63,760 bases of DNA, taken from contig CAUJIP010000078.1 of NCBI GenBank assembly GCA_963205235.1, forward strand, positions 1-63,760, read 5' to 3'. The notes beneath the pieces were generated by a model. That model did not search any database and was not told the origin of the DNA. It saw only the letters and a program-made list of their open reading frames with translations. This DNA comes from Pseudomonadota bacterium (lineage in GTDB: Bacteria; Pseudomonadota; Alphaproteobacteria; Rhodobacterales; Rhodobacteraceae). Position numbers and translations under genes: made by a program. Every line of letters begins with the position of its first letter. Within the stretch, counting starts at the first letter, position 1. Of this stretch, positions 11,693-32,691 are shown one piece after another.

Positions 11693-12955
11693 ATGAGAGA
11701 ACTTGAAACTTTCTTTAAGAACAATGCGTGGTCCAAAATAGACGTTTCCGACACGAGCAAGATTGATGGATCATCATCGTCCATACTGACGCCATGGGGT
11801 GACGATAGCCTACAAATCCTAATTCCTGCGGATCCCCATGATTCGGCTCCACTTATTGATTCACTCAACAAGGTAATTCTACCGAAACGACTTTCAGCCC
11901 TATTTGAATTGGAGGCTAGACGTCTGGAAGTCATATGGACCGCACTGAAGATTCCGCCTAGTCTAGAAGAAATATCTAAACGAGAATTCACCTTCTGTTT
12001 TCATGGGAAGGAGCACAAATGCTACTTTTCCGAATCCAGTTCGCACCTACTCAATATCGCTCGTCGAGCCGTGCCAATAGGGCAGAGCAATACCAACTTT
12101 CGTAACTTAAACTCATTTAGCCGCTACGCACTGGAACTTGATGGCGCAACACGAGATCGGCTCTTTGGAAAGCCGAAGTCGTTCTATATTGAGAACTTGG
12201 ATTTTGACGAGGAAAGAGTGGTCACTCTTAGCGAGAATCTCAATTTTTACATGTCATACTATGACTACTCGGCGCCCCGCATCCTCGTTCATGATGACAC
12301 TGAAGTAGTCTCGTCAAGTTCTCGCCTCCGGTATAGGACCGGAAAGTTTCCAAATTACATAGACGCAACCCCTATCGATGAAAACCTTCTAAGCTTCTGG
12401 GCAGAGTCTTTCTCAGGAAACGAAATATTACAGTTCATGCTTCACTTTAGAATAATGGAGTATGCATCTTCATCTTATGCCGCCGAGAATCTCCGAAGAA
12501 GAGTTCTACGCTCTGTTTCTAGGCCAGACATTCGAGACAATCCAGGGCGCGTTGCGGATGAGATTGTAGAATTCTTGAATGCATCTGACGCCAAAGTTCA
12601 AGACGACCACTCACGCTTCATTAATACCATTAGGGAAAATGTAACACCTGAGGTCCTATGGTCCGAAATTGAGAAGGAGAGACACGCTTTCTCAGAGCGC
12701 AGACAGTGCGATGGCGGCTTTTGCCTTGAACCGTTGATTGATAAATCCTCGACAATCGAGCAATTCAGACCAAAGGGTGTGGAGAATTTTTCTCGCCAGA
12801 TACGCGAAATCAGAAACGTTCTTTCTCACGGAAAGGACTTCCCGAGGGACGGCGTGTTTCGACCGACGAGAAGGAACCTGCGTCTCCTTCGCCCGTGGGT
12901 GAGTCTCATGGCCCTCGCATCCGGTGAAGTCGTTCTCGGAAGAGTTTCCCGTTGA
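11693..12955 (+). CDS. Unknown protein with C-terminal HEPN-like domain, low GC
   Basis: A 420-residue protein I do not recognise over its whole length. Its GC content is clearly lower than that of every neighbour (mid-40s percent by eye against the mid-60s), and its codon use is different, which points to horizontal acquisition. The C-terminal 60 residues contain IREIRNVLSHGKD: the R374-N-x3-H379 motif of HEPN ribonuclease domains (Rx4-6H), followed by the PTxxNLxxLxPW helix often found after it. Proteins such as ApeA share this layout of a large variable N-terminal region with a C-terminal HEPN domain and act in phage defence. No defence partner is visible beside it. The start ATG at 11693 has GGAGAAAC upstream. 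Confidence 0.65.
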   Translation: MRELETFFKNNAWSKIDVSDTSKIDGSSSSILTPWGDDSLQILIPADPHDSAPLIDSLNKVILPKRLSALFELEARRLEVIWTALKIPPSLEEISKREFTFCFHGKEHKCYFSESSSHLLNIARRAVPIGQSNTNFRNLNSFSRYALELDGATRDRLFGKPKSFYIENLDFDEERVVTLSENLNFYMSYYDYSAPRILVHDDTEVVSSSSRLRYRTGKFPNYIDATPIDENLLSFWAESFSGNEILQFMLHFRIMEYASSSYAAENLRRRVLRSVSRPDIRDNPGRVADEIVEFLNASDAKVQDDHSRFINTIRENVTPEVLWSEIEKERHAFSERRQCDGGFCLEPLIDKSSTIEQFRPKGVENFSRQIREIRNVLSHGKDFPRDGVFRPTRRNLRLLRPWVSLMALASGEVVLGRVSR

Positions 12956-12976
12956 CTTGCGAAACTGACTATTAAT

Positions 12977-12996
12977 CCTTAGATTGCAGTCTAAGG
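12977..12996. repeat. 20-bp near-perfect palindrome after the HEPN gene
   Basis: CCTTAGA (12977-12983) and TCTAAGG (12990-12996) pair perfectly around a TTGCAG centre, 21 bp past the HEPN gene stop. There is no T-run, so it is either a weak terminator or a protein-binding site. Confidence 0.45.
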
Positions 12997-13052
12997 CACC
13001 AAAGCTGGGAGTTAGAAGATGAGTGGCGGCGGCTAACTTATTGAAATGATTG

Positions 13053-13077
13053 CAGAAGCGGCCGGTTGCCGCTTCTG
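13053..13077. repeat. Perfect 10-bp hairpin in the low-GC island
   Basis: CAGAAGCGGC (13053-13062) and GCCGCTTCTG (13068-13077) form a perfect 10-bp stem with a CGGTT loop. It is the strongest hairpin in the gap and has no following T-run on the plus strand. Confidence 0.5.
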
Positions 13078-13349
13078 TCACTTCATGGATTTCCACCGAA
13101 TCACACCTCTCTACGGTGAGATGCGCTTTCGTATTAACGGCATTTGGCATCTCGACTTGAGCCTGCACTTCTTGGAGTGCTTCGCCAGTAGCAACCTTTT
13201 GCCCAAGCTTCAGGCCCGCGATATTTCGTCCTTCGGATGATCTGTCGGCGTATGACTTGAAGAACCAAACGTAGGCTCATCTTCCCCCCTCCCCCCGATT
13301 CGCCCCGCATGGTTAACGCCTCCTCCCCCTCGCCGGGGGCAAGACGAAA

Positions 13350-13389
13350 GGAAGACAAAAGGAAGACAAAAGGAAGACGTTTGTCTTCC
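13350..13389. repeat. Three GGAAGAC direct repeats plus inverted copy
   Basis: GGAAGAC occurs at 13350, 13361 and 13372 with an exact 11-bp period (spacer AAAA). It is followed after GTTT by its reverse complement GTCTTCC (13383-13389) and a C-run ending in TTTT. The inverted copy can pair with any of the three repeats, giving alternative hairpins. On the minus strand the innermost hairpin is followed by TTTT. Confidence 0.6.
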
Positions 13390-13471
13390 CCCCCTTTTGG
13401 CTGATTAAGCCTGCGTTCTCATGGGCTTGCCTTGCGGCCCGCTGCTCTTGCGGCCCCCGCAGCAAATTCCC

Positions 13472-13500
13472 TTGACACAAAGCCCCCTTCTCCGAAATGT
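13472..13500 (+). promoter_or_regulatory. Probable promoter of the nicX-like operon
   Basis: A consensus -35 box TTGACA (13472-13477) is followed after 17 bp by the weak -10 candidate AAATGT (13495-13500), 38 bp before the chosen start of the nicX-like gene. The -35 is convincing and the -10 is not. An unseen regulator, perhaps the TetR encoded in the operon, may be needed. Confidence 0.45.
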
Positions 13501-13537
13501 TTACTCACGGGTTAAGCAATTTCGAGCGGAGGCGTGG

Positions 13538-14590
13538 ATGCTGCAGGAACGGATCGAGGGCAAATGGCTGGCCGCCTTCCGGCGCGTCTTTGCCCTGAAC
13601 GGCATCGGAAACGGCACGCGCGTGGCGATCCTGTCGGAAACCCAGTCCCGCCAAGTCCTTGTTCATCTTAGCGAATTGACCGCCCATGACCTGGGGGCCG
13701 AGTTCTGCATGATCCAGATGCCCACCCCCCGCCAGACCGCCCCCGTGCCCGTGAAATCCACCGGAACCTCATGGGCGATTCAGGGCAACCGGGCGGTAGT
13801 CGAGGCGTTGAAGCTGTGTGAGGTCATCGTCGATTGCACCGTCGAAGGCATCATCCACGCCCCCGAATGGCCCGAGATCGAAGACGCCGGCCGCACCCGT
13901 TTGTTGGTCATCACCAACGAACACCCTGAAATCCTTGAAAGAACTGAACCCAACGCAGAATTGAACGCCAAGGTCCAACTCGGCATCCAGATGCTCCGCG
14001 AAGCCAAAGCGATGCACGTGACCTCCGCCGCCGGAACCGACCTCCACATCAACCTCGAAAACGCCCCCTGCGGCGGCACCGCCGGTTTCGGCACCACCCC
14101 CGGAGCGGTTGCCCATTGGCCCGGCGGCCTCTGCCTCGCCTTCCCCGGCAAAGGTGCGGTGAACGGGCGGATCGTCATGGACGTCGGCGACATGAACCTG
14201 ACGTTCAAGACCTATCTGACCAGCCGGATCGACTTCACCGTAACCGATGATTTTGTCACTGAAATCAAGGGCGAAGGCATCGATGCCCTGCACCTGCGGG
14301 AATACATGGAGGCTTGGGAGGACCGTAACGCCTATGGTCTTTCACACGTCGGCTGGGGGGTGAACCCCGGCGCGAAGTGGGTTAGCGCCGCCATGTATGA
14401 CAAGCGCGACATGCAAGCAGTGGAGTTCCGGGCGATTGCCGGGTCTTTCCTGTGGTCGACGGGTGCCAACCAATATGCCGGGCGCTATACGCTGGGCCAT
14501 TTCGACCTGCCGATGCGCAACTGCACCATCGCTCTTGATGGCCAAGTAGTTGTCAAGAAAGGCGTTTTGCAAGGCGACCTTGCGTCCTGA
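13538..14590 (+). CDS. NicX-like 2,5-dihydroxypyridine 5,6-dioxygenase family protein
   Basis: A 350-residue cytosolic protein whose length and pattern match NicX, the Fe(II) dioxygenase that opens 2,5-dihydroxypyridine to N-formylmaleamate and shares its fold with M29 aminopeptidases. SHVGWG (H270) and HFDLPMRNC (H321, D323) correspond in position to the metal-binding His and His-x-Asp reported for NicX. Around residue 181, where NicX has a glutamate ligand as I recall it, this protein reads GTAGFGTTPG, so that ligand may differ. The ATG at 13538 follows GCGGAGGCG; a longer in-frame extension lacks conserved sequence. It heads a six-gene operon. Ring cleavage of a hydroxylated pyridine-like ring is the likely reaction; the exact substrate is unknown. 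Confidence 0.7.
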   Translation: MLQERIEGKWLAAFRRVFALNGIGNGTRVAILSETQSRQVLVHLSELTAHDLGAEFCMIQMPTPRQTAPVPVKSTGTSWAIQGNRAVVEALKLCEVIVDCTVEGIIHAPEWPEIEDAGRTRLLVITNEHPEILERTEPNAELNAKVQLGIQMLREAKAMHVTSAAGTDLHINLENAPCGGTAGFGTTPGAVAHWPGGLCLAFPGKGAVNGRIVMDVGDMNLTFKTYLTSRIDFTVTDDFVTEIKGEGIDALHLREYMEAWEDRNAYGLSHVGWGVNPGAKWVSAAMYDKRDMQAVEFRAIAGSFLWSTGANQYAGRYTLGHFDLPMRNCTIALDGQVVVKKGVLQGDLAS

Positions 14591-14612
14591 TCCCCAAACC
14601 TCCGAGGCGAAG

Positions 14613-15920
14613 ATGAGCGATATTTCCGACTATTACGACCTAAGCCGCATCCGCCCCGAAGTGCAGGCGGCGCTGCGCAAGATCAACGAGATGGGACCCC
14701 GGTTTGCAGAACGGGCGAAGGCGGTGGATGACGACGCCAGTTTCCCCACGGACAACTACCGCGATCTGGCCGAGGCGGGATTTCTGGGCCTGTCGATCCC
14801 CAAGGAATTCGGCGGCTGGGGCTTTGATCTGGGCGAATATGCCATGGTCGGGGCCGAAATCGGCAAGTACTGCGGCGCGACCGCGCTGACCTTCAACATG
14901 CACAACGGGTCGATGGCCTGGTCGCGGTTCATGTATGAGATGCCGAACCTGACGCCCGAGGAAAAGGCCGAATTCGCCCCCCTGCGTGAACGGCAGTTCC
15001 GCCGGGCGATTGCCGAAAAGGCGATCTATTCCCAGCCGATTTCCGAAGGCGGGCAGAACTGGACGTCAAAGCCGAACCAGACCCAGGCCCGCGCGGTCGA
15101 GGGTGGCTGGAAGATCAACGGTTTCAAGAAGTTCGCGTCTCTGGCGGGCTATTGCGATTACTATACCATCGTCTGCACCGAGGTCTTTGAGGGGATCGAG
15201 CCCCGGCACGAAGACACGATGCTGTTCGTCGTCCACAAGGATACCCCCGGCCTGACGGTCAAGGGCGATTGGGACCCGCTGGGCATGCGCGGCACCAACA
15301 GCCGCGACCTGATCCTGAAGGATGTCATGGTGACCCGCGACGACCTTCTGATGCCGCGTGGGATCTTTGGCAAGACCCTTCCGCATTGGCCGCACATGAT
15401 GGCGACCCTTTCGCCGACTTATATGGGCGTGGCGCAGGGGGCCTTTGACTTCATGGTGGATTACCTGAAGGGCAAGATCCCCGGCCAGCCGCCAATCGAT
15501 CGGCGGATGTATGCGACCAAGCGGATCACCGTCGGGCGGATGTATGCCCGTCTGGCCAACATGCGCGCGCTGTGGTGGCAGGCGTTCTGCGAGGGCAAGG
15601 GCTTTCCGACCAAGGGCGAAGTCATGCGGATGTATGCCGCGCAGTACAACATCATGGAAGGTGTGCAAGAGATTGCCGCGCTGGCCATTCGCACCTGTGG
15701 CGGGCAGTCGATGCTGAAGTCCCTGCCCTTGGAGCGGATGTATCGCGACAGTCGCTGCGGGGCGCTGATGTTGCCCTATACCTCGGAAATCATGGAGGAT
15801 TATCTGGGGGTGCTGGCCTTGTACGAGATGGACGAGATCGACAGCGCCCCCGGCGATGAAGGGGGTGCCAGAAATTCGCTTTGGCGCGGCGAAAGCGGCC
15901 AATTGCGGATGCTGCGCTGA
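14613..15920 (+). CDS. Acyl-CoA-dehydrogenase-fold flavoprotein, possible flavin-dependent monooxygenase
   Basis: A 435-residue member of the acyl-CoA dehydrogenase superfamily. It has an N-terminal helical domain (FGLSIPKEFGG-type motif, here LGLSIPKEFGGWG), a middle beta domain (AYS-like region ISEGGQNWTSKP and DPLGMRGTNSRDL) and a C-terminal helical domain. By hand alignment the catalytic Glu of medium-chain type enzymes (in YEGTSQI) is replaced, with LPYTSEI near residue 388. The alternative base position of isovaleryl-type enzymes also lacks Glu. That argues against simple dehydrogenation and for a group D flavin monooxygenase or another chemistry. A flavin reductase is encoded at the end of the same operon. 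Its stop overlaps the next start (TGATG). Confidence 0.75.
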   Translation: MSDISDYYDLSRIRPEVQAALRKINEMGPRFAERAKAVDDDASFPTDNYRDLAEAGFLGLSIPKEFGGWGFDLGEYAMVGAEIGKYCGATALTFNMHNGSMAWSRFMYEMPNLTPEEKAEFAPLRERQFRRAIAEKAIYSQPISEGGQNWTSKPNQTQARAVEGGWKINGFKKFASLAGYCDYYTIVCTEVFEGIEPRHEDTMLFVVHKDTPGLTVKGDWDPLGMRGTNSRDLILKDVMVTRDDLLMPRGIFGKTLPHWPHMMATLSPTYMGVAQGAFDFMVDYLKGKIPGQPPIDRRMYATKRITVGRMYARLANMRALWWQAFCEGKGFPTKGEVMRMYAAQYNIMEGVQEIAALAIRTCGGQSMLKSLPLERMYRDSRCGALMLPYTSEIMEDYLGVLALYEMDEIDSAPGDEGGARNSLWRGESGQLRMLR

Positions 15921-17206
15921 TGGCAAAGGACCGGGTGCAGGTCACCGGGCGGATTGCGGCAGAACCGAACGCTGTCTGGGCGGTACTGGATGATTTCGCC
16001 GCCGCCTGGCATCCGTGGGTTGCGACAATCCGCGCCGAACGGGATGCACGGGGGGCCTTGGTCCGGGCCTTTACCGTTGGTGGCGAGGCGGGGCTTTACC
16101 GCGAGCAGTTGACCTATCTTTCCGGTTCAGATCGGGTGCTGGCCTATACCCATCTTGAGGGCATCGAAGGCTGCGACCGCTATGATGCCCGGATCACAGT
16201 GACCGAGGCCGAAGGTGGGGATACCCTTGTCACCTGGTCGGCCGAGGTCGAAGCCAGCGGCGCGCGGTTGCAGGCAATCTGCGACGGCACGCGGGCGGTG
16301 TTCGAGGCGGGGCTGGCGGCCCTGCCGGGTGTCTTGGGCCGTGTCCCCAAGGCCGATGGTCCAATGCCTGCGCCGGTACCGCTGGCCCCTCTGGTGTTTG
16401 ACGATCTGCCAAGGCTGGCCTTGACGGTAACGCCCGATCTTGGCGACGGGCGGCTGTGCCTGTTCCTGCACGGGATCGGCGGCGGGCGGGTAAACTGGCA
16501 TTCGCAACTGCAAGCCGTCGGTGGCGTCATCCGCGCGGCGGCGCTGGACCTGCGGGGTTATGGCAACAGCAGCCTTGGGCCGAAGCAGTCCAAGGTCGAT
16601 GACTATTGCGCCGATATCCTTCGGGTCATGGAGAAGCTTGGCGCGAAACGACTGGTGCTTGTGGGGCTGTCCTATGGGTCCTGGATCGCCACCTCATTCG
16701 CGATGCGGCATCCAGAGCTTCTGGACGGGCTGGTCCTGTCGGGCGGTTGCACCGGCATGTCCGAGGCCGGGCCGGATGAGCGTGAGGCGTTCAGAGTCAG
16801 CCGCGAGGTGCCGCTGAACGCAGGCCAGGTGCCCGCCGATTTTGCCCCTGCCGTGGTCAAGGTGCTGGCGGGGCCGGGGGCAAGTGATGACGTCAAGCGG
16901 GCGTTGCTGGGCAGCATGGCGGCAATCCCCGCAGCGACCTATCGCGATGCGCTGGTCTGTTTTACCAACCCGCTGGAAAGGTTCGATTTTTCACGCCTGA
17001 CGATGCCCGTCCTGATGATGACCGGCGAATTTGACCGTTTGGCCCCGCCTGCCGAAATTCGGGGGGTAGCTAGCCGGATCTGGGACGCCGCCCCGCGCCC
17101 CGTCGTGCGGTTCGAAGTGATCCCCGATGCAGGTCATGTCTGCAATGTCGAGGCCCCCGGGGCCTATAGCCGGCACCTTCTTGATTTCATCCGCGACCTG
17201 CCATGA
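15920..17206 (+). CDS. SRPBCC domain fused to alpha/beta hydrolase
   Basis: A 428-residue two-domain protein. Residues 1-140 form an SRPBCC (Bet v1/polyketide cyclase-like) lipid- or aromatic-binding domain: VTGRIAAEPNAVWAVLDDF, then a central strand region and a C-terminal helix. Residues 160-428 are an alpha/beta hydrolase with oxyanion motif LHGIGGG, nucleophile elbow GLSYGS (S251), acid D372 in TGEFDRLAPP and histidine H406 in DAGHVCN, so the triad is complete. In nicotinate and picolinate pathways an alpha/beta hydrolase (NicD/PicE) deformylates the NicX product, and this enzyme could play the equivalent part. The start overlaps the previous stop, which indicates translational coupling. 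Confidence 0.8.
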   Translation: MAKDRVQVTGRIAAEPNAVWAVLDDFAAAWHPWVATIRAERDARGALVRAFTVGGEAGLYREQLTYLSGSDRVLAYTHLEGIEGCDRYDARITVTEAEGGDTLVTWSAEVEASGARLQAICDGTRAVFEAGLAALPGVLGRVPKADGPMPAPVPLAPLVFDDLPRLALTVTPDLGDGRLCLFLHGIGGGRVNWHSQLQAVGGVIRAAALDLRGYGNSSLGPKQSKVDDYCADILRVMEKLGAKRLVLVGLSYGSWIATSFAMRHPELLDGLVLSGGCTGMSEAGPDEREAFRVSREVPLNAGQVPADFAPAVVKVLAGPGASDDVKRALLGSMAAIPAATYRDALVCFTNPLERFDFSRLTMPVLMMTGEFDRLAPPAEIRGVASRIWDAAPRPVVRFEVIPDAGHVCNVEAPGAYSRHLLDFIRDLP

Positions 17207-17889
17207 CCGAACTTCCTCGCCGCCAGTTGAACCGCATCGCCCGCGAACGCGCCTTTCTTGACGCGGCGCTGCAGCTGTTCGCGGCACAGGGCTATTCTGG
17301 CACGACGATGGATCAGGTGGCCGAGGCGGCGGGCCTGACCAAGCCGACGCTGTACCAGTATTTCCCGTCGAAAGAGGCGCTGTTCGCCCGCATGATGCTG
17401 GAAAAGCGCGATACGATGCTGGCGGGTTTTGCCACGCCCGAGGGCGGCGGAATGGTCGAACAGTTGCACGCCTTTGCCTGGCGCTATGCCGACACGGTGA
17501 TGCAGCCGATGATGCTGTCGCTGGCCCGGTTGATCCTGGCCGAGGTGCAGCGGTTCCCCGAAATCGGGCGCGCCTATCAGGCGGCGGGGCCGGATCAGCT
17601 TTTGGCGGCACTGATCGCGTTTCTGGAAGGCCAGCGCGCTGCAGGTCGTCTGCAGTTTCAGGATGCCGAACTGGCGGCCGAGGACCTTTGGGGCCTGATC
17701 CTGTCTGCCCCGCGCACGCAGGCGCTGTATCGTCCCGATCTGCACCAAAGCCGCGAGGCTCTGGCGCGCTATGTCACGAACGGCCTGCAGGTCTTTCTGC
17801 GCGCCTATTCCACCGATCCGAAGGCCGATCTTGACCGGCTTCACACCCTTAAGACCCCCGCAGCCGCAGAGGTGATTCATGACGCTTGA
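17203..17889 (+). CDS. TetR/AcrR family transcriptional regulator
   Basis: A 228-residue regulator with the TetR helix-turn-helix at residues about 12-58 (FLDAALQLFAAQGYSGTTMDQVAEAAG, TKPTLYQYFPSKEALF) and a helical ligand-binding domain, including a TetR_C-like ending. It overlaps the hydrolase gene by ATGA and the next gene by 11 bp. Being embedded in the operon, it probably represses its own operon and responds to a pathway intermediate. Confidence 0.9.
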   Translation: MTELPRRQLNRIARERAFLDAALQLFAAQGYSGTTMDQVAEAAGLTKPTLYQYFPSKEALFARMMLEKRDTMLAGFATPEGGGMVEQLHAFAWRYADTVMQPMMLSLARLILAEVQRFPEIGRAYQAAGPDQLLAALIAFLEGQRAAGRLQFQDAELAAEDLWGLILSAPRTQALYRPDLHQSREALARYVTNGLQVFLRAYSTDPKADLDRLHTLKTPAAAEVIHDA

Positions 17890-19219
17890 CGACTATCTTG
17901 CCGAACCCGCCAACCGCTTTGCCACTGTGGCGATGGCCGATACCAACGGGCTTTTGCGCGGGCAGATGGTTTCGACCAGCAGCCTGCGGGGGATCGTGAA
18001 GAACGGCATGGGCATGGCCCCGGCGCAGCTGGCGCTGGACCCGACCGATGTCTTGCTGACGATCCCCGGCGTCAACGATGACTCGGGGGATTTTCATGAC
18101 GACCCGCTGGCGGTTGACCCGACCAGCGTCCGCCGTCTGCCTTGGTCAAAGCCGGGACATGACCTCTTAGTCCTTTCGAACTTTACCGGCGCTTCAGCCG
18201 AGCTTTGCCCGCGGTCAATCCTGAAATCGGTGCTGGCGCGGGCGGGTGCGGCGGGGTTCGTGCCGAAATACGGGATGGAACTGGAATACACCCTGTTCGA
18301 CGAAACTCCGGAAAGCGCGCGCGCCAAGGGGTATCGCAACCTGAAACCCGCTGCGACCCATGCCAGCCATGACCTGGTGATCTATCAGGCGGTCCAGACC
18401 GAGTGGTACGAGGCGATCAGCGCCATGTGCGACCCCTTGGGCATCAACCTGGCCAAGATGCACGAGGAAATCGGCGCGGGTTTCATGGAGGCTTGCATCG
18501 CGGCGGGCGAAGGGCTGGAGCCTGCAGACCAGTTGATGCTGCTGAAGAACTTCATCCGCGCGCTGGCCCTGCGGCAGGGGCGGTCGGTGACTTTCATGCC
18601 GCGCTGGAATGAACAGGCGGACAGCCAGTCGATCCACCTTCACATCAGCCTGAAGGACAAGGCGGGCAAGCCCCTGTTCCATGATCCGTCGCAGAAGAAC
18701 GGTGTCAGCCAGACCTTCCGGCATTTCCTGGGGGGTCTGCAGAAATATTTGGCCGAAATGACGCTGATCTTCCTGCCCACGGTCAATTCCTACCGCCGCT
18801 TTGCCCCCGGAACCTTTGCGCCGCCCGGCCTGACCTGGGGCTATGAAAACCGCACCACCGCGCTGCGGATCGTGGGCCATGACGCGGGCAGCCTGCGGGT
18901 GGAAAACCGCCTGCCTGGGGCTGATACCAACCCGTACCTGACCGCTGCCGCCACAATTGCCGCAGGCGTCGCCGGCATCATCGAAAAGGCCGAGCCTGAT
19001 CCCGAGACCATCGGATCGGGCTACGCTCAGGAAGCCCCGCGCGACTTTGCCCGATCGATGCCCGATGCGATCGACCGGCTGCGCGGATCGGCCTTTGCCA
19101 AGGATTGGCTGGGTGCGCGCTTTGTCGAAGGGTTCAGTGCAACCCGCTCTGGCCAATACGATGAATTCCGGCGCAAGGTTCCCGATGTGGAACTGGAACG
19201 ATTCTTCGACCTGGGGTAA
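17879..19219 (+). CDS. Glutamine synthetase-like gamma-glutamyl ligase
   Basis: A 446-residue member of the glutamine synthetase family, type resembling PuuA/IpuC-like gamma-glutamyl-amide ligases rather than GlnA. The beta-grasp N-domain contains ADTNGLLRGQMV, the catalytic domain has GMELEYTLFDE near residue 130, the HLHIS metal site and NSYRRFAPGTFAPP with GYENRTTALRI. The adenylylation-loop tyrosine environment of GlnA is absent. Such enzymes attach glutamate to an amine so that it can be oxidised or transported safely. In this operon it would protect or activate an amino group of the substrate; the amine is unknown. Confidence 0.8.
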   Translation: MTLDDYLAEPANRFATVAMADTNGLLRGQMVSTSSLRGIVKNGMGMAPAQLALDPTDVLLTIPGVNDDSGDFHDDPLAVDPTSVRRLPWSKPGHDLLVLSNFTGASAELCPRSILKSVLARAGAAGFVPKYGMELEYTLFDETPESARAKGYRNLKPAATHASHDLVIYQAVQTEWYEAISAMCDPLGINLAKMHEEIGAGFMEACIAAGEGLEPADQLMLLKNFIRALALRQGRSVTFMPRWNEQADSQSIHLHISLKDKAGKPLFHDPSQKNGVSQTFRHFLGGLQKYLAEMTLIFLPTVNSYRRFAPGTFAPPGLTWGYENRTTALRIVGHDAGSLRVENRLPGADTNPYLTAAATIAAGVAGIIEKAEPDPETIGSGYAQEAPRDFARSMPDAIDRLRGSAFAKDWLGARFVEGFSATRSGQYDEFRRKVPDVELERFFDLG

Positions 19220-19222
19220 GCA

Positions 19223-19729
19223 ATGACTGACCTTCGCAGCCGTTTTCTGGAAGGCATGAGCCGGGCGGCAACTTTTGTCGGCGTGGCCACGACAGATGGC
19301 CCGTCGGGGCGGTTCGGGGTGACGATATCCTCGCTGACCTCGGTTTCCGCCGACGGCGACCACCCGTCGCTTTTGGCATGCATCCATCACCGCAGCCCGG
19401 CAGCAGCGGCGATCCTTGGCAACCGAGCCTTTTGCGCGAACCTTTTGCACCAGGGGCAAGAGGGCGTGGCGAACCTGTTTGCAGGACGCGACGGCAAGGA
19501 CCAGGCGGCCCGGTTTGACGAGGCGAAATGGACCGCCGGGACAATCGGTCAGCCACGGATTGACGGTGCGACAGCGCAGTTTGAATGCAAGCTTGCCACG
19601 GCGTTGTTGTGGGAGACGCATTACATCATCGTCGGGGATGTGGTGGGCGTCGATCTGTCAGATGATACGGCAGCGCTGCTTTACGGTCAGCGCGCCTATC
19701 GCAAGGCCGTGGGGTTGGGCGACAGCTAA
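19223..19729 (+). CDS. Flavin reductase (HpaC-like)
   Basis: A 168-residue flavin reductase of the HpaC/ActVB type, supplying reduced FMN or FAD to a partner monooxygenase. The N-terminal ATFVGVATTDGPSGRFGVT and SSLTSVSADGDHPSLLACIHHRSP match the split-barrel flavin-binding core, and GDVVGVDLSDDTAALLYGQRAYRK the end. It follows the GS-like gene by 3 bp. Candidate partners are the dehydrogenase-fold protein at 14613-15920 or a 4-hydroxyphenylacetate hydroxylase encoded elsewhere; the operon favours the first. Its stop codon TAA lies in the end of a mobile-type repeat. Confidence 0.85.
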   Translation: MTDLRSRFLEGMSRAATFVGVATTDGPSGRFGVTISSLTSVSADGDHPSLLACIHHRSPAAAAILGNRAFCANLLHQGQEGVANLFAGRDGKDQAARFDEAKWTAGTIGQPRIDGATAQFECKLATALLWETHYIIVGDVVGVDLSDDTAALLYGQRAYRKAVGLGDS

Positions 19730-19831
19730 AGCCTGTCTGGTTCTGATTGAACCAGGCGGATCGGACAAACGCGGTCGAGCGAAAGCGAGAGGCAGCGATT
19801 TCCGATTCAGATCGAGCCAGACAGGCTCTAG
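19726..19831. mobile_element. About 100-bp MITE-like element with terminal inverted repeats and TA flanks
   Basis: The ends CTAAAGCCTGTCTGG (19726-19740) and CCAGACAGGCTCTAG (19817-19831) are inverted repeats matching at 14 of 15 positions, with partial pairing continuing inward. A TA dinucleotide flanks both sides, as expected after insertion of an IS630/Tc1-mariner-type element, and the interior has no gene. It fills the whole gap between two convergent genes, and its ends provide the TAA of the flavin reductase and the TAG of hpaR. It could also act as a two-way terminator. Confidence 0.7.
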
Positions 19832-20277
19832 TCCTTGGCGCGCGGCAGGGCCTGCAGCGCCTCAAGCATATCCAACAGGCTTTCCAGCCGTTCCAGACCG
19901 AAATCGCGCTCGATCCGGGCAAAGATGCTTGCGCTTTGCGCCGAATGGGTGCGGATCAGCGCCTCGCCCGCGGGGGTAATCGCGGCAATCGTCTTGCGGC
20001 GGTCATCATCGGGCGTCGTGCGGGTGATCAGGCCGTCCTCCTCCATCGCCCTGGCAATCCTGGTCAGGCTTGGCAGCAGAAGGCAGGCCTCGGACGCAAG
20101 CTGGGTCAGTTCGGACGGACCCCGTTCCTGAAGCACGCGCAGGACGCGCCATTTCTGTTCGTTGACCCCGGAAGAGGCCAGCATGTCGCGGATGGGGCCC
20201 ATCACGCTTTCCCGCGCCCGAAGAAGGGCGATGGGCAGCGAGCGTTTGGTGCGACGCAGGGGAAGATCATTTGCCAT
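19828..20277 (-). CDS. hpaR: MarR-family regulator, homoprotocatechuate operon repressor HpaR
   Basis: A 149-residue winged-helix regulator of the MarR family. The recognition region SELTQLASEACLLLPSLTRIARAMEEDGLITR, the wing DDRRKTIAAIT and the RTKRSLPIALLRARESVM N-terminus fit HpaR. The ATG at 20277 gives the usual HpaR length; the longer frame adds 19 unconserved residues. It is divergent from hpaF, and a promoter with an overlapping palindrome lies between them. HpaR is known to repress the hpa meta operon and to be released by 4-hydroxyphenylacetate-type effectors. Confidence 0.85.
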   Translation of the reverse strand: MANDLPLRRTKRSLPIALLRARESVMGPIRDMLASSGVNEQKWRVLRVLQERGPSELTQLASEACLLLPSLTRIARAMEEDGLITRTTPDDDRRKTIAAITPAGEALIRTHSAQSASIFARIERDFGLERLESLLDMLEALQALPRAKD

Positions 20278-20327
20278 ACCCTGACTATCCCCCTGTTTTG
20301 ATTTCTCCTCAAGCCCGCTGCGACAGC

Positions 20328-20377
20328 TTGACACGGGGGCATTCGGGGGCTAGCTTTTACTTAACAAAGCAAGTAAA
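20328..20377 (+). promoter_or_regulatory. hpaF-operon promoter with HpaR operator
   Basis: A -35 TTGACA (20328-20333), a 17-bp spacer and a -10 TAGCTT (20351-20356) form a good sigma-70 promoter. The palindrome TTTACTT (20356-20362) with AAGTAAA (20371-20377) and an 8-bp centre covers the expected start of transcription and ends 8 bp before the hpaF ATG. This is where a MarR-type repressor would block initiation. Confidence 0.65.
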
Positions 20378-20385
20378 CTGATCCC

Positions 20386-20778
20386 ATGCCCCATATCCAG
20401 ATCGACTATTCGCCCAATCTTGAAGCCCGCCTGGACATCGCGGGCCTGTGTGTCGTGCTGCGGGATGCGGCGGTTGCGACCGGGGTCCTGCCGCTGGCTG
20501 GCATCCGGGTGCGGGCAATCCGGGTCGATCATGTGGTGATCGCCGACGGCAACCCTGACCATGCCTTCCTTGACATCGCGGTCCGGCTGCGTGGCGGGCG
20601 CAGCGCCGAGGCCAAGGCGAAGGCGACCGAGATCATCTTTGCCGCGGCGCAGGCTTATTGTGCCGGGGTGATGGCGACATCCTCTTTCATGCTGTCGATG
20701 GAAATGCGGGACATCGACCCAAGCCTTTCGCCCAAGGCCAGTTCCATCCGCAAATACCTGCCCGGAGGTGGCGAATGA
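20386..20778 (+). CDS. hpaF: 5-carboxymethyl-2-hydroxymuconate isomerase
   Basis: A 130-residue member of the tautomerase superfamily that isomerises 5-carboxymethyl-2-hydroxymuconate in the homoprotocatechuate pathway. Proline is the second residue (MPHIQIDYSPNLE), so it becomes the N-terminal catalytic base after Met removal. The VDHVVIADGNPDHAFLDIAVRLRGGR core is typical of CHMI. First gene of the hpa operon; its stop overlaps the hpaE start (ATGA). Confidence 0.92.
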   Translation: MPHIQIDYSPNLEARLDIAGLCVVLRDAAVATGVLPLAGIRVRAIRVDHVVIADGNPDHAFLDIAVRLRGGRSAEAKAKATEIIFAAAQAYCAGVMATSSFMLSMEMRDIDPSLSPKASSIRKYLPGGGE

Positions 20779-22283
20779 GCGATCTTGCAACCCAACTGGC
20801 GAAACTTGACGGTCATCTGGCGCGGTTCCGCGACAAGGGCATCCTGAACCTGATCGACGGTCAGGACGTGCCGGGCGCGGGCGGGGTGTTCGAAACGAAT
20901 TCGCCGGTCGACGAAAGCCTGATCGCGCCGGTGGCGCGCGGCACGGCGGCGGATATCGACCGGGCGGCCAAGGCGGCCAAGGCGGCGTTTCCGGCCTGGG
21001 CGGCGATGCCGGGCGACCAGCGCAAGGCGATCCTGCACCGCATCGCCGATCTGATCGAGGCGCGGGCCGAGGAAATCGCGCTGTGCGAATGCTGGGACAC
21101 CGGGCAGGCCTGGCGCTTCATGTCCAAGGCGGCGCTGCGCGGGGCCGAGAATTTCCGGTTTTTCGCCGATCTGGCCCCAAGCGCGCGCGACGGGCAAAGC
21201 CTGCCGACCAGGGATCACTTGAACGTCACCACGCGGAAACCGATTGGTCCGGTGGGGGTGATCACGCCCTGGAACACACCGTTCATGCTATCGACCTGGA
21301 AGATCGCGCCCGCGCTGGCTGCTGGCTGCACGGTCGTTCACAAACCGGCCGAGTTTTCGCCGTTGTCTGCGCGACTGCTGGCGGAAATCTGCCATGAGGC
21401 CGGTCTGCCGCCGGGTGTCCTGAACCTGGTCAACGGGTTGGGGGAGGAGGCTGGCAAGGCGCTGACCGAACACCCGGACATCAAGGCGATCGCCTTTGTG
21501 GGAGAAAGCCGGACCGGCAGCATGATCATGCGGCAGGGGGCCGAGACACTGAAGCGGGTTCACTTTGAACTGGGCGGCAAGAACCCGGTCGTGGTCTTTG
21601 ACGATGCCGATCTGGAACGCGCGCTGGATGCGGTGATCTTCATGATCTACTCGCTGAACGGTGAACGCTGCACGTCCTCTAGCCGGTTGCTGGTACAGGA
21701 CACGATTGCCGAGAAGTTCCACGCGATGCTGGTTAGCCGGGTGAACAACATCAAGGTCGGCCATCCGCTGGACCCGGCGACCGAGATCGGGCCCTTGATC
21801 CACAAGACCCATTTCGACAAGGTCACCTCCTATGTCGAGATCGGCCATCAGGACGGCGCGAGCCTTGCCGCAGGCGGCAACCGGGTGGGCGACAAGGGCT
21901 GGTTCATCCGCCCGACACTGTTCACGAATGCACGTTCGGATATGCGGATCGCACAGGAGGAAGTGTTCGGCCCGTTCCTGACCTCGCTGACCTTCAAGGA
22001 CGAATCCGAAGCCTTGGCGATTGCCAACAGCACCGCCTATGGTCTGACCGGGTACATCTGGACCAACGACTTGACCCGCGCGATGCGGTTCTCTGACGCG
22101 CTGGAGGCCGGGATGATCTGGGTGAACTCGGAAAACGTCCGCCACCTGCCCACACCCTTTGGTGGCGTCAAGGCCAGTGGTATCGGCCGCGATGGCGGCG
22201 ACTGGTCGTTCGAATTCTACATGGAACAGAAGAACACGGCCTTCGCCCTTGGCCAGCACAAGATCCAGCGGCTGGGGGCCTGA
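20775..22283 (+). CDS. hpaE: 5-carboxymethyl-2-hydroxymuconate semialdehyde dehydrogenase
   Basis: A 502-residue NAD-dependent aldehyde dehydrogenase that oxidises the ring-cleavage product of homoprotocatechuate. It shows the substrate/NAD motif GVITPWNTPFMLSTWKIAPAL, the FVGESRTGS cofactor loop, the catalytic glutamate in FELGGKNPV and the nucleophile Cys in NGERCTSSSR. The RHLPTPFGGVKASGIGRDGGDWSFEFY ending is specific to HpaE-type enzymes. The ATG at 20775 overlaps the hpaF stop. Confidence 0.95.
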   Translation: MSDLATQLAKLDGHLARFRDKGILNLIDGQDVPGAGGVFETNSPVDESLIAPVARGTAADIDRAAKAAKAAFPAWAAMPGDQRKAILHRIADLIEARAEEIALCECWDTGQAWRFMSKAALRGAENFRFFADLAPSARDGQSLPTRDHLNVTTRKPIGPVGVITPWNTPFMLSTWKIAPALAAGCTVVHKPAEFSPLSARLLAEICHEAGLPPGVLNLVNGLGEEAGKALTEHPDIKAIAFVGESRTGSMIMRQGAETLKRVHFELGGKNPVVVFDDADLERALDAVIFMIYSLNGERCTSSSRLLVQDTIAEKFHAMLVSRVNNIKVGHPLDPATEIGPLIHKTHFDKVTSYVEIGHQDGASLAAGGNRVGDKGWFIRPTLFTNARSDMRIAQEEVFGPFLTSLTFKDESEALAIANSTAYGLTGYIWTNDLTRAMRFSDALEAGMIWVNSENVRHLPTPFGGVKASGIGRDGGDWSFEFYMEQKNTAFALGQHKIQRLGA

Positions 22284-22325
22284 CCGCCAACTGCAACCGA
22301 AGACCATCGGACCGACAGGGAGGAT

Positions 22326-23180
22326 ATGATGGGAGAACTGGTTCTGGCTGCAAAATGCACCCATGTGCCGACGATGCTCATGTCAGAGCAGGAGGGGCCG
22401 GTGAAGGGCAAGCGGCAGGCGGCCATTGACGGCCATATGGAGATCGGTCGCCGCGCAAAAGAGTTGGGCGTCGACACGGTGATCATCTGCGACACGCATT
22501 GGGTGATCAACGCGGGCTTCCACATCAACGCGAATGACACGTTCAAGGGGCTGTTCACCTCGAACGAATTCCCGCAGTTCATACAGGACATGCCCTACGA
22601 CTATCAGGGCAACCCGGCCCTGGGCGACGCCATCGCAAAGGCCGCGACCGAGATGGGTGTGCATACCCTGTCGCACCACCTGGACAGCCTTGAGATGGAA
22701 TACGGCACGTTGGTCCCGATGCGGTTCATGAGCCGCGCACACCAGATGAAGGTCGTCTCCATCGCGGCCTGGTGCACGGTTCACAGCCACGAGGAAAGCC
22801 GGGTGATCGGGCAGGCGATCCGCAAGGCGGTCGAGGCATCCGACAGCCGGGTGCTGTTGGTCGCGTCGGGGTCACTGTCGCACAAGATCTGGCCGAACAA
22901 GGATTACGCGGCGAACAACGGGACCTTTACCATCAGCTCGGAATTCAACCGCCAGATAGACCTGCATGTGCTGGACATGTGGCAGCGCGGCGATCACGCG
23001 ACCTTCCTCAAGATGCTGCCGGACTATGCCCAGTTCTGCTGCGGCGAAGGGTCCATGCATGACACGGCGATGCTGTATGGTGCGCTTGGCTGGGACAAGT
23101 ATACCGCCAAGTGCGAGGTCGTGACCCCCTATTTCCCGTCGTCCGGCACCGGCCAGACCAACGTCATCTTCCCGGTCTGA
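22326..23180 (+). CDS. hpaD: Homoprotocatechuate 2,3-dioxygenase, class III (LigB) type
   Basis: A 284-residue extradiol dioxygenase of the LigB superfamily, close to E. coli HpaD/HpcB over its full length. It cleaves 3,4-dihydroxyphenylacetate next to the hydroxyls using Fe(II). The metal-site histidines are visible in AAKCTHVPTM near residue 12 and in DTHWVINAGFH near 60. ASGSLSHKIW near 180 and CGEGSMHDT near 240 are the other conserved family blocks. It is the second enzyme-coding step of the operon and is followed 9 bp later by a second, unrelated dioxygenase for what appears to be the same substrate. Confidence 0.92.
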   Translation: MMGELVLAAKCTHVPTMLMSEQEGPVKGKRQAAIDGHMEIGRRAKELGVDTVIICDTHWVINAGFHINANDTFKGLFTSNEFPQFIQDMPYDYQGNPALGDAIAKAATEMGVHTLSHHLDSLEMEYGTLVPMRFMSRAHQMKVVSIAAWCTVHSHEESRVIGQAIRKAVEASDSRVLLVASGSLSHKIWPNKDYAANNGTFTISSEFNRQIDLHVLDMWQRGDHATFLKMLPDYAQFCCGEGSMHDTAMLYGALGWDKYTAKCEVVTPYFPSSGTGQTNVIFPV

Positions 23181-23189
23181 GGAGGACCC

Positions 23190-24170
23190 ATGCCCGTTCC
23201 CGCCCCGAACCTCTACCCGCCCTTCAACACAATCCGCCTGAGCCATGTCGAATTCGGCGTGACCGACCTTGCGCGCAGCCGCGCCTTCTACGTCGACACG
23301 CTGGGACTGCAGGTCACGCATGAGGATGCGACGACCCTGACCCTGCGCGCGCTGGAAGAACGCGGGCATCACTGCATCATCCTGAAAAAAGCCGACAAGG
23401 CCGAAGCGCGCTATCTGGGCTTCAAGGTCTGGGACGAGGACAATCTTGACCGCGCCGCCGCCTACTTTGCGGCCAAGGGTCTGCCGGTCGACTGGGTCGA
23501 AACCCCGCACATCACCCGCGCCTTCCGCACCCGCGACCCGCAGGGCATTCCGCTGGAGTTCTATGCCCGGATGGACCGCCTGCCGCCGATCCATCAGCAA
23601 TACAAGCTGTACCACGGGGTCAAGCCGCTGCGGATCGACCATTTCAACTGCTTCTCTCCTGACGTTGACGCCTCGGTCGCGTTCTGGAACGAGATCGGCT
23701 TCCGGGTGACGGAATATACCGAGGATGCGGAAACCGGGCGCCTTTGGGCTGCCTGGACGCACAGGAAGGGCGGCGTGCATGACATCGCCTTCACCAACGG
23801 CACCGGGCCGCGCCTGCACCACACCGCGTTCTGGGTGCCGACGCCCTTGAACATCATCGACCTTCTGGACCTGATGTCGACGACCGGCTGGCTGGCGAAC
23901 ATCGAGCGTGGACCGGGGCGGCACGGGATCTCGAACGCCTTCTTCCTGTATATCCGCGACCCGGACGGCCACCGGATCGAGATCTACTGTTCCGACTATC
24001 AGACCGTGGACCCCGACCTTGAGCCGATCAAGTGGGACCTGAAGGATCCCCAACGCCAGACGCTGTGGGGCGCCCCTGCCCCTCGCAGCTGGTTCGAGGA
24101 GGGAAGCCTGTTCACCGGCACCCCCACCGTGCCAAGCAGCCTTAAAGCCACGCCGATCATCGCGCCATAA
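23190..24170 (+). CDS. Homoprotocatechuate 2,3-dioxygenase, VOC (type I) family
   Basis: A 326-residue vicinal-oxygen-chelate dioxygenase resembling the Brevibacterium/Arthrobacter homoprotocatechuate 2,3-dioxygenases (HPCD/MndD). It has two betaalphabetabetabeta repeats (residues about 13-130 and 147-270). The metal ligands map to H151 (RIDHFN), a His of RLHHTAFW (H210/H211) and E264 (HRIEIY). The second-sphere catalytic His appears as H197 in GGVHDIAF, and the YCSDYQTVDPD lid segment is present. The cofactor would be Fe(II) or Mn(II). It starts 9 bp after hpaD with its own GGAGG site, so the operon makes two enzymes of different fold with the same predicted reaction. Confidence 0.88.
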   Translation: MPVPAPNLYPPFNTIRLSHVEFGVTDLARSRAFYVDTLGLQVTHEDATTLTLRALEERGHHCIILKKADKAEARYLGFKVWDEDNLDRAAAYFAAKGLPVDWVETPHITRAFRTRDPQGIPLEFYARMDRLPPIHQQYKLYHGVKPLRIDHFNCFSPDVDASVAFWNEIGFRVTEYTEDAETGRLWAAWTHRKGGVHDIAFTNGTGPRLHHTAFWVPTPLNIIDLLDLMSTTGWLANIERGPGRHGISNAFFLYIRDPDGHRIEIYCSDYQTVDPDLEPIKWDLKDPQRQTLWGAPAPRSWFEEGSLFTGTPTVPSSLKATPIIAP

Positions 24171-24180
24171 GGGGGCCGGA

Positions 24181-25575
24181 ATGGACTGGACGAGCTTTGC
24201 CCGCTGGGGTGCCCGCATCGCCGACTGGGGCGCCACCTATCACCGGGGCCTGCGCGACCGCCCGGTTCGCGCGCCCTTGGTGCCGGGGGCAACGCTTCGC
24301 GCCCTGCCCGCCGCGCCGCCCGAAAGCGGCGAGGCGATGGAGCAGATCTTTGCGGACTTCGAGACGCTGATCCTGCCTGGCATGACCCATTGGCAGCATC
24401 CCCGCTTCTTCGCCTATTTCCCAGCCAATGCCACACCGCCCTCGATGCTGGCCGAGTTCCTGTCCTCGACCATCGCGGCACAGTGCATGCTGTGGCAGAC
24501 CTCGCCCGCCGCGACCGAGCTGGAGACGGCGATGATGTCCTGGCTGGCGCAGGCCGTTGGCCTGACCGGGGTTGAGGGAGTGATCCAGGACAGCGCCTCC
24601 TCCGCCACGCTGGCCGCCGTGCTGGTGATGCGGGAACGCGCGCTGGATTGGGCGGGCAATCAGGCGGGCCTGAGCGGCCAGCCGCGCCTGCGGGTCTATT
24701 GTTCGGACGAGGTGCATACCTCGGTCGACCGGGCGATCTGGGTCGCGGGGATCGGGGCCGACAACCTGATCCGCATTCCGACCACGGGTCCGACACGCGG
24801 CATGGACTCAGAGGCGCTGGACGCCGCGATCCGGGACGACCTTGCGGCAGGCCATCGCCCCGCCGGGGTCATCGCCTGCATCGGCGGCACCGGGACCGGG
24901 GCCTGTGACGACCTGACCAAGGTCCTGGCAGTCGCCAAGGCGCATGGGCTTTATTCCCACGTCGATGCGGCCTGGGCCGGGGCGGCGATGATCTGCCCCG
25001 AGTTCCGCCCGCTCTGGGACGGGATCGAGCTGGCCGACAGTCTGGTCTTCAACCCGCACAAATGGCTGGGCGTGCAGTTCGACTGCGCCGCGCAATTCCT
25101 GCGCGACCCGTCCGATCTGGTGCGGACGCTGGCGATCCGGCCCGAATACCTGAAGACCCACGGCACCGACGGGATCATCAACTATTCCGAATGGTCGATC
25201 CCCCTTGGCCGCCGGTTCCGGGCGCTGAAACTGTGGTTCGTGCTGCGGACCTATGGGCTGGAAGGGCTGCGGCACCGCCTGCGCAATCATGTGCGCTGGT
25301 CGGTCGCGCTGGCGGACCGGTTGCGCGCCCATCCCCGGTTCCAGATCGTGACCGAGCCGGTCCTGTCGCTGTTCACATTCCGGCTAGCCGGGGCGGATGA
25401 TGCGGCGCAGCAGGCCTTTGTCAACCGGATCAACGATGACGGGCGGATCTATGTGACCCAGACCCGCGTCGGCGGTGCGACGGTGGTCCGGTTTCAGGTC
25501 GGGCAGTTCGACGTGACCGAGGCGGATCTGGACATGGCCTATGAAACCTTGGTCAGTCTGGCGGGGGATGCATGA
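24181..25575 (+). CDS. PLP-dependent aromatic-L-amino-acid decarboxylase
   Basis: A 464-residue group II pyridoxal-phosphate decarboxylase. The N-terminal HWQHPRFFAYFPANATPPSMLAE segment is diagnostic for the DDC/tryptophan/tyrosine decarboxylase family. SSATLAAVLV and VDAAWAGAAMICPEF are cofactor regions, and the Schiff-base lysine is in FNPHKWLGVQFDC. It would make tyramine, dopamine or phenylethylamine from the matching amino acid. In this operon that suggests feeding tyrosine- or DOPA-derived carbon into (homo)protocatechuate. It overlaps hpaG by ATGA. The true amino acid substrate is not determinable here. Confidence 0.88.
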   Translation: MDWTSFARWGARIADWGATYHRGLRDRPVRAPLVPGATLRALPAAPPESGEAMEQIFADFETLILPGMTHWQHPRFFAYFPANATPPSMLAEFLSSTIAAQCMLWQTSPAATELETAMMSWLAQAVGLTGVEGVIQDSASSATLAAVLVMRERALDWAGNQAGLSGQPRLRVYCSDEVHTSVDRAIWVAGIGADNLIRIPTTGPTRGMDSEALDAAIRDDLAAGHRPAGVIACIGGTGTGACDDLTKVLAVAKAHGLYSHVDAAWAGAAMICPEFRPLWDGIELADSLVFNPHKWLGVQFDCAAQFLRDPSDLVRTLAIRPEYLKTHGTDGIINYSEWSIPLGRRFRALKLWFVLRTYGLEGLRHRLRNHVRWSVALADRLRAHPRFQIVTEPVLSLFTFRLAGADDAAQQAFVNRINDDGRIYVTQTRVGGATVVRFQVGQFDVTEADLDMAYETLVSLAGDA

Positions 25576-28314: not shown

Positions 28315-28388
28315 GGGAGACCTCTGACTGAAGGGCGGTTTTCCCAAGTGTTGCACAAGTAAAGCATTGGTCCCGCGCATTCTGGCGC

Positions 28389-28417
28389 TTGAAATCCGGG
28401 CATCATGCGTCAAGTAT
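28389..28417 (+). promoter_or_regulatory. Possible promoter of the Lrp-type gene
   Basis: TTGAAA (28389-28394), 17 bp, then AAGTAT (28412-28417) resembles a sigma-70 promoter 34 bp before the chosen start. Its ends also form the loose inverted pair CTTGA/TCAAG, a possible site for the regulator itself, between it and hppD. Confidence 0.4.
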
Positions 28418-28450
28418 GCAAATATGGACCCTGCCGCGCGAGGTTTCCGC

Positions 28451-29759: not shown

Positions 29760-30077
29760 TCAGGCTGCGGGCACCCTTACCACGATTCCGTCAAGCTCGG
29801 CGCGCATCTTGATCTGGCACGACAGGCGCGAGGTTTCCTCACGCGGGGCTTCGGCGACATCGAGCATGTCTTCCTCGAACCCCTCGGCCACGCCCGCCCT
29901 GGCAGACCATGCCGGGTCGACCACGACATGGCAGGTCGCGCAAGACAGCGAGCCGCCGCATTCGCCGACGATGCCGGTGACGCCCTTGGCCACCGCCGCC
30001 GCCATCAGGCTGGTGCCTTCGGCCACGTCATGGGTGACAGCGCTGCCGTCCTGCAGAATCCAGGTTGCCTTCATCAT
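29760..30077 (-). CDS. [2Fe-2S] ferredoxin, adrenodoxin/putidaredoxin type
   Basis: A 105-residue ferredoxin with the cluster cysteines C40-x5-C46-x2-C49 and C87, the pattern of P450-linked vertebrate-type ferredoxins. It is made from the same strand as the P450 and GS-like genes and should pass electrons to that P450. No dedicated ferredoxin reductase gene is seen in the window, so a shared reductase is implied. Confidence 0.92.
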   Translation of the reverse strand: MMKATWILQDGSAVTHDVAEGTSLMAAAVAKGVTGIVGECGGSLSCATCHVVVDPAWSARAGVAEGFEEDMLDVAEAPREETSRLSCQIKMRAELDGIVVRVPAA

Positions 30078-30083
30078 CGCCTC

Positions 30084-31376: not shown

Positions 31377-31404
31377 GGTGGTTTCCCCGTTGTTCGTTTC
31401 TTGA

Positions 31405-32661: not shown

Positions 32662-32691
32662 CGCATTCTCCTTGCCCGAGCGGATTTTCTG

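Follow-up and report, generated by a model that had tools for sequence, protein, structure and literature searches.

A conserved six-gene operon of Rhodobacterales and rhizobia that may open indole-type rings with a NicX-like dioxygenase

A stretch of 63,760 nucleotides from a member of the Rhodobacteraceae (GenBank assembly GCA_963205235.1, contig CAUJIP010000078.1; hereafter the window), which is the whole of contig C78 of a 3.79 Mb genome, carries at 13538-19729 six open reading frames (ORFs), all on the plus strand. They encode a NicX-like dioxygenase, an acyl-CoA dehydrogenase (ACAD)-fold flavoprotein, an SRPBCC-hydrolase fusion, a TetR-type repressor, a glutamine synthetase (GS)-like protein and a flavin reductase. 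We infer, tentatively, that these genes form one TetR-controlled catabolic operon for the oxidative opening of a tryptophan-derived, indole-type N-heteroaromatic, a reading in which every reaction, the substrate and the point at which the GS-like enzyme acts are deduced. It builds on gene content, conservation, active-site retention, the operator, genomic associations and a shared palindrome, which are observed directly. What is new in the unit is how known enzyme families are combined; it does not amount to a novel type of system. A preliminary description of this DNA, which had placed a plus-strand unit of six tightly overlapping genes here, proved right in its coordinates and domains; it also knew of no pathway combining these genes, and neither such a pathway nor such an operon is described in the open-access literature searched.

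The six-gene unit and its enzymes

The genes (Table 1; domains called with Pfam and NCBIfam) are separated, in order, by a 22-base gap, overlaps of 1, 4 and 11 bases, and a 3-base gap. The hydrolase ATG provides the 1-base overlap, with the stop of the preceding ACAD gene; hydrolase searches used 15923-17203, which is in frame and starts after the first Met.

Table 1. Positions of the unit's genes, its regulatory sites and two related gene fusions
Feature	Position	Strand	Remarks
TTGACA -35-like box, operon promoter	13472..13477	+	same box at the matching place in most relatives' upstream regions (by eye)
Probable TetR operator, imperfect dyad GTTTACTCACGGGTTAAG	13499..13516	.	overlaps -10 region
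NicX-like Fe(II) ring-cleaving dioxygenase	13538..14590	+	350 aa; match to solved NicX
ACAD-fold flavoprotein; probable oxygenase component of a two-component monooxygenase	14613..15920	+	435 aa; ACAD N/M/C domains
SRPBCC + alpha/beta hydrolase fusion; probable deformylase/amide hydrolase	15920..17206	+	428 aa; Polyketide_cyc2 + Abhydrolase
TetR/AefR-type repressor	17203..17889	+	228 aa; TetR_N + TetR_C_7
GS-like amine ligase, altered glutamate-loop motif	17879..19219	+	446 aa; Gln-synt_C
Flavin reductase, RutF/HpaC-like	19223..19729	+	168 aa; Flavin_Reduct
Flavin reductase-LysR-domain fusions	L070:15703-16866, L104:17701-18879		nearest solved chains 3fzv and 6m5f

Gene order was checked by tblastn in 83 loci (the best 80 of 140 confirmed relatives on genome contigs, plus three plasmid loci) that had been chosen by the NicX-like protein alone. 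All six genes are present in the same order in 68 of the 83, and the first three in 80, which excludes a chance grouping; the genes are thus kept together in other genomes, as the preliminary description had proposed to check. Five of the 15 incomplete loci end at a contig edge (L025, L061, L076, L087, L096), and the other 10 have no tblastn match for at least one of TetR, the GS-like protein and the flavin reductase. The carriers are mainly Rhodobacterales and rhizobia, and the relatives of the window genome are mostly Rhodobacteraceae. An APC permease lies near the unit in 58 of the 83 relatives, and is replaced at some loci by a TctABC-type transporter.

When 292 genomes of the order were scanned for the NicX-like protein, 22 matched, at 48-100% identity in 12 and at 28-35% in 10. 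The 12 whose match had an E value below 1e-100 are called unit genomes here, and the other 10 are taken as carriers of ordinary NicX relatives. The unit genomes include one (G289, 48%) that is without the GS-like gene and whose hydrolase is without SRPBCC.

No Pfam or NCBIfam family matches the NicX-like protein, which aligns with solved NicX (7cn3) at an E value of 4e-57 over about 330 residues. Positions H105, H189, H265 and H318, which together with D320 we take to be the ligand and catalytic residues of NicX, are histidine in all of 94 loci (a set holding two duplicates, L137=L054 and L139=L102), and D320 is aspartate in 93. Given these conserved positions, and with no peptidase model matched, an M29 peptidase function was rejected. 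NicX, a 2,5-dihydroxypyridine 5,6-dioxygenase, thus resembles the unit protein in about 330 aligned residues, in five active-site positions and in having a hydrolase gene nearby. Unlike the NicX system, however, the unit has no NicC-type oxygenase, close homologues of NicE and NicF are nearly absent from the unit genomes, and the unit proteins form a separate clade, with relatives at 48-89% identity to the unit protein and the next group at 37% or less.

An ACAD-fold oxygenase and a flavin reductase are encoded in one operon, as expected of a group D two-component flavin monooxygenase; the reductase gene is in order with the other five in the 68 complete loci and was not found at several others. 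Such an oxygenase would be expected to have lost the catalytic glutamate of acyl-CoA dehydrogenases; the C-terminal motif of the ACAD, read directly from the sequences of 92 loci, is LP(Y/F)(T)(S/T)EIMEDY, and the protein has no motif of the YEG type, which we presume to be usual in acyl-CoA dehydrogenases. A 44% identical ACAD homologue (L153:11974-13221) is found near a Tn3 transposase region on a plasmid of the cyanobacterium Dolichospermum; it stands alone there and was set aside as a clue from context. In the hydrolase a GLSxGxW nucleophile motif is retained, as are an aspartate and a histidine motif.

The GS-like protein contains the GS catalytic domain (Gln-synt_C, 277.8 bits), which it shares with the gamma-glutamyl amine synthetases PuuA, IpuC, TdnQ and GmaS. 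It falls below the NCBIfam cut-offs for the PuuA type (NF045547, 167.4 of 650 bits) and for GlnA type III (TIGR03105, 186.1 of 469.6), and, in contrast to those synthetases, its loop motifs are altered: DSQS(I/A/T/M)H replaces the canonical GSGMH, and PGTFAP replaces PGYEAP. The donor or acceptor of the enzyme may therefore be unusual. The nearest solved chains, 5dm3 and 11zs, have an altered loop too. Homologues at 37% identity in Rhizobium leguminosarum and Burkholderia G4 lie in GS-ALDH-GATase-like amine contexts and proved uninformative.

Regulatory sites and the gentisate dioxygenase link

The dyad CTTAACTnnnnAGTTAAG lies 3' of the TTGACA box and overlaps the -10 region; a generic promoter scan did not list the box. 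In 60 of 84 loci a strict form of the dyad, YTTWACYNNNNRGTWAAR, is present no more than 250 bp from nicX; the window copy, with a matrix score of 19.2, departs from it in the first base. Within the window's own genome TTWACYNNNNRGTWAAG matches at the nicX operator only, and a reversed control matches there as well (1 forward, 1 reverse), so that the evidence for an operator is the position of the site and not its count. The dyad is the probable natural operator of the encoded TetR. A wider TetR regulon was rejected: no second good operator was found in 1.67 Mb of loci, in which two other sites scored weakly (11.1 and 10.6, against 19.2). Among 11 unit genomes the strict pattern matches in 7, and away from nicX in 3 (G178, G026, G274).

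In some lineages enzyme and regulator are joined. Five of 11 fetched loci (L141, L142, L143, L145, L146) encode the hydrolase and TetR in one ORF of about 650-670 residues, and the four of these fusions that were run against Pfam contain SRPBCC, hydrolase, TetR_N and TetR_C_7 domains. Both of the rhizobial-type flavin reductases checked (Table 1) end in a LysR substrate-binding (effector-binding) domain with no DNA-binding domain. The solved chains closest to that domain are named merely as probable regulators; one of them, which we believe to be HinK, led no further as a clue. Such a fusion is what would be expected of a substrate-stimulated reductase, by analogy to HPAH C1, a flavin reductase of that kind.

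At 35 of 84 loci the unit has a nearby gene for a gentisate dioxygenase (GDO), which matches the Silicibacter pomeroyi enzyme 3bu7 at an E value of 2e-170. Its companions, present to varying completeness, are an FAH-family hydrolase, a nitrilase-like protein, a second flavin reductase and a divergent FCD regulator; the five genes of this cluster, taken in the order just given, occur at 37, 40, 22, 38 and 26 of 83 loci. GDO is found in 4 of the 12 unit genomes and in 11 of the other 280 (p 2e-3; this and the other co-occurrence values are from Fisher tests over the 292 genomes that ignore kinship).

The two gene groups share a palindrome. TTTTCGAAAA occurs 58 times in the 84 sequences (1.67 Mb): 31 copies lie just ahead of nicX and 25 at the start of GDO, which leaves 2 elsewhere. 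Among the 35 GDO loci, 19 have both sites, 6 the GDO site only, 3 the nicX site only and 7 neither. Since 56 of the 58 copies are at nicX and GDO promoters, it is probable that in many relatives a single regulon comprises the unit and the GDO operon, operating, as we picture it, via the FCD protein. In 16 genomes the 12-base form of the palindrome occurs 36 times and a reversed control not at all. One of ten additional sites that were fetched belongs to a GDO operon located on a different contig in Gemmobacter caeni, and three belong to MFS-histone-deacetylase-like operons.

Three further features of the window were noted. The product of 35160-36278 is a histone-deacetylase-family amidohydrolase about 60% identical to the deacetylases of the three palindrome-bearing operons, which are MFS operons with the ATTTTCGAAAAT palindrome in three Mesorhizobium genomes. 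A copy of TTTTCGAAAA at 33501, one of the 2 outside the nicX and GDO promoters, makes up the loop of a GGAGTTTTCGAAAACTCC hairpin that lies between convergent genes, and is probably a terminator, not an operator. ORFs at 43331-46756 resemble maleylacetoacetate isomerase, homogentisate dioxygenase and fumarylacetoacetase, as read from the sequence only.

The anthranilate association and the candidate substrates

The unit is also associated with anthranilate genes. A bifunctional FMO/OYE enzyme is found in 11 of the 12 unit genomes and in 108 of the other 280 (p 3e-4). It belongs to the NCBIfam salicylyl-CoA 5-hydroxylase/oxidoreductase family, and its architecture is presumably that of 2-aminobenzoyl-CoA (anthranilate) monooxygenase/reductase. 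In the window's own genome it is encoded on another contig (C125) with a CoA ligase, ACAD, hydratase, MarR, SDR and thioesterase, and its genes adjoin the unit in 2 of the 94 loci (L141 and L142, from one Rhodobacterales genus, g21). In Sagittula stellata the FMO/OYE genes stand with kynU, tryptophan 2,3-dioxygenase (TDO) and a CoA ligase, and this cluster adjoins a unit-type GS (55%), a GATase, a P450 and an iac-like operon. A CoA ligase 75-79% identical to that of the Sagittula kynU-TDO-anthranilate cluster is near the unit in 9 of the 94 loci: directly after the permease in six, past one more, opposite-strand gene in two Shinella loci, where TDO follows it, and, in the ninth, at a distance of about 3 kb and in the opposite orientation. 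The 2-aminobenzoyl-CoA module, which co-occurs with the unit so widely and adjoins it at some loci, is nonetheless a separate module, which the unit would feed.

NicX cleaves the bond between a hydroxylated carbon and the CH on the ring nitrogen, giving an N-formyl group and a carboxylate. In the mechanism that we favour, the flavin reductase would supply reduced flavin to the ACAD-fold oxygenase, which would hydroxylate the carbon adjacent to the nitrogen-bearing CH of an N-heteroaromatic ring. The NicX-type enzyme would then place dioxygen between the C-OH and CH-N carbons to give a carboxylic acid and an N-formyl amide, a step modelled on NicX cleavage between C5 and C6 of 2,5-dihydroxypyridine, and the SRPBCC-hydrolase would take off the formyl group. 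Indoxyl has the geometry that NicX cleaves, and so would give N-formylanthranilate; on an indole-type ring the route would run from indole through indoxyl and N-formylanthranilate to anthranilate, or likewise on a substituted indole. The anthranilate-type product could enter the 2-aminobenzoyl-CoA route in the window's own genome, or a co-regulated gentisate-type route in the relatives. The GS-like enzyme would gamma-glutamylate a primary amine, either on the substrate or on a by-product, and the APC permease would import the substrate. Such a mechanism accounts for the oxygenase-NicX-hydrolase trio and for the anthranilate link, and it accounts for the gentisate link through a known anthranilate-to-gentisate metabolism for which, as one passage of a 2018 review has it (PMC6221969), no gene is known.

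Parts of this chemistry have precedents. A passage of PMC4577076 describes ACAD-family flavoproteins that oxidise indole, and the unit resembles these Type II flavoproteins, like the iac operon for indole-3-acetate, in pairing an ACAD-fold oxygenase with a flavin reductase and in the proposed indolic chemistry. However, iacA is not close to the unit ACAD, and none of the Sagittula iac-like iacA-F and iacH (labels assigned from annotation order) has a match of at least 40% identity in the 94 unit loci, where the reductase iacG has a single one (L036, 42%). The iif/ind operon, which converts indole to a proposed product anthranilate (PMC6221969, in the passage concerned), also combines a flavin reductase with an oxygenase. 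As described in part of PMC4577076, it encodes a DLH-family hydrolase (IifA), an SDR (IifB), a StyA/MoxY-like flavoprotein (IifC) and an AraC-type regulator, none of which is present in the unit; IifC, not being ACAD-like, was rejected as a model for the oxygenase. Literature on tryptamine/gentisate clusters and on Sagittula yielded nothing on point.

Several observations weigh against an indole-type substrate or narrow its reach. The unit contains no indole- or tryptophan-specific gene. Indole itself as the substrate would leave the permease and the GS-like gene unexplained; these are accounted for only if the substrate carries an amine, as does tryptamine or a relative. The variation of the transporter by lineage (APC or TctABC) gives no guide to the substrate's charge. 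The 12 unit genomes are related (8 genera, with 3 and 2 genomes from single genera), the FMO/OYE enzyme is common overall (119 of 292 genomes), and G061 carries the unit without it. The position of H105 is phenylalanine in 9 of the 10 distant NicX relatives, so the five positions are not all needed throughout the family. On the regulatory side, the window's nicX promoter is without the palindrome, six of the ten additional palindrome sites have no evident link, and one search of the window's own genome, made without a positive control, gave no GDO match, which implies that the gentisate branch is not general.

The unit could instead serve an anthranilate-like aromatic amine or an arylalkylamine, which the GS-like enzyme would gamma-glutamylate, the flavin monooxygenase would hydroxylate on the protected ring, and the NicX-like enzyme would cleave in the benzene ring as a gentisate dioxygenase would; the gamma-glutamylation of aniline follows the same logic. 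We consider this fairly unlikely. In favour of it, the combination of a GS-like protein, a GATase and an oxygenase recurs. The window unit has no GATase, but one follows the unit in L141, L142 and L146, and in L141 and L142 GS-like protein, flavin reductase and GATase stand together. A flavin amine oxidase occupies the GS place in L143 and L139, which fits an amine substrate. A second module in the window (29760-33435) consists of a 2Fe-2S ferredoxin (-), a second GS-like gene (-), a P450 (31408-32652, -) and a divergent GATase (32731-33435, +), and likely performs a gamma-glutamyl-protected oxidation; its P450, found in 45 of 292 genomes overall, is associated with carriage of the unit (in 7 of the 12 unit genomes and in 38 of the other 280, p 6e-4). 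Sagittula and Novosphingobium have similar GS-GATase-P450 operons (L157:28873-32180 and L154 at about 12001-15324), which are under AraC control and whose GS is of the unit type (55-58%). Nevertheless, the GS-like gene is absent from several loci that retain the first three genes, which also leaves the amine-glutamylated-first order of the preliminary description not borne out, and we know of no NicX-type enzyme that cleaves a benzene ring.

It is unlikely that a pyridine-type acid or betaine (a hydroxypyridine, or else homarine or another N-methylpyridinium) is the unit's substrate, degraded through NicX-type C5-C6 opening, although the monooxygenase-NicX-hydrolase trio mirrors NicC/NicX/NicD and the nearest solved structure is a 2,5-dihydroxypyridine dioxygenase. 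Deformylation of a C5-C6-cleaved N-methylpicolinate would moreover yield an N-methylglutamate-type product, and a homarine operon, homABCDER, reportedly gives N-methylglutamate; the literature searched did not contain it. Work on homarine catabolism, PMC12817926 included, gave no further lead. At an ordinary NicX locus (L150) the neighbours include isochorismatase-family and Amdase-family proteins, as expected for NicF and NicE, and a NicD candidate with no Pfam match. Close homologues of both NicE and NicF (64-100%) are present in all four ordinary-NicX genomes tested, of ten such seen, one of the four being the source of the queries. The 12 unit genomes, in contrast, gave a close NicE in one (G124, 65%) and a close NicF in none, with weaker matches to NicE in G289 and to NicF (32-40%) in G124, G274 and G178; benzenoid (anthranilate, gentisate) genes are associated instead, and many carriers are, by their record titles, soil rhizobia and freshwater Rhodobacterales. 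Of the scheme in the preliminary description, the arrangement as one apparently co-transcribed unit, the two-component flavin monooxygenase, the NicX-type ring opener, the hydrolase and the GS-like amine ligase are supported, and a nicotinate/picolinate-type pyridine route is not.

That the unit belongs to the homoprotocatechuate genes downstream (an aromatic amino acid amine route, for example from tyramine or dopamine) is highly improbable: HpaR, HpcD-like, HpaE, HpaD, HpaH and a pyridoxal phosphate (PLP) decarboxylase are adjacent in the window, and the same decarboxylase and HpaE lie beside the unit in L088, but HpaD does not co-occur with the unit (found in 2 of the 12 unit genomes and in 25 of the other 280, p 0.31), two carriers of the same genus (G155, G171) have no HpaD match, and none of the 94 unit loci has the window-type HpaD at 40% identity or more. 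These neighbours occupy 19828-27223, with HpaR and HpaD above the model cut-offs, an HpcD-like protein below its cut-off, HpaE, HpaG-like and HpaH-like proteins, and the PLP decarboxylase at 24181-25575; 27220-28509 is HPPD by Pfam.

Implications for indole and anthranilate catabolism

The unit's proteins are mostly annotated just as peptidase M29, acyl-CoA dehydrogenase or glutamine synthetase, names that hide the pathway. A bolder proposal, which we regard as rather doubtful, is that the unit represents an undescribed, widespread route for tryptophan-derived indolic amines, in which a non-heme iron enzyme of the NicX type, working as an indoxyl-type 2,3-dioxygenase, would yield N-formylanthranilate, with hydrolase-TetR fusions in some lineages and GDO co-regulation, and in which the unit or its partners would hold the missing step from anthranilate to gentisate. 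The hydrolase-TetR and reductase-LysR-domain fusions would be compact links between enzyme and sensor.

A route through N-formylanthranilate was proposed from metabolites in 1953, as a passage of the 2018 review recounts (PMC6221969). If the reading of an indole-type substrate is true, the unit would provide candidate genes for the opening of indole-type rings by that route, together with candidate genes tied to the metabolism of anthranilate to gentisate, and NicX-type chemistry would extend from pyridines to benzo-fused rings.

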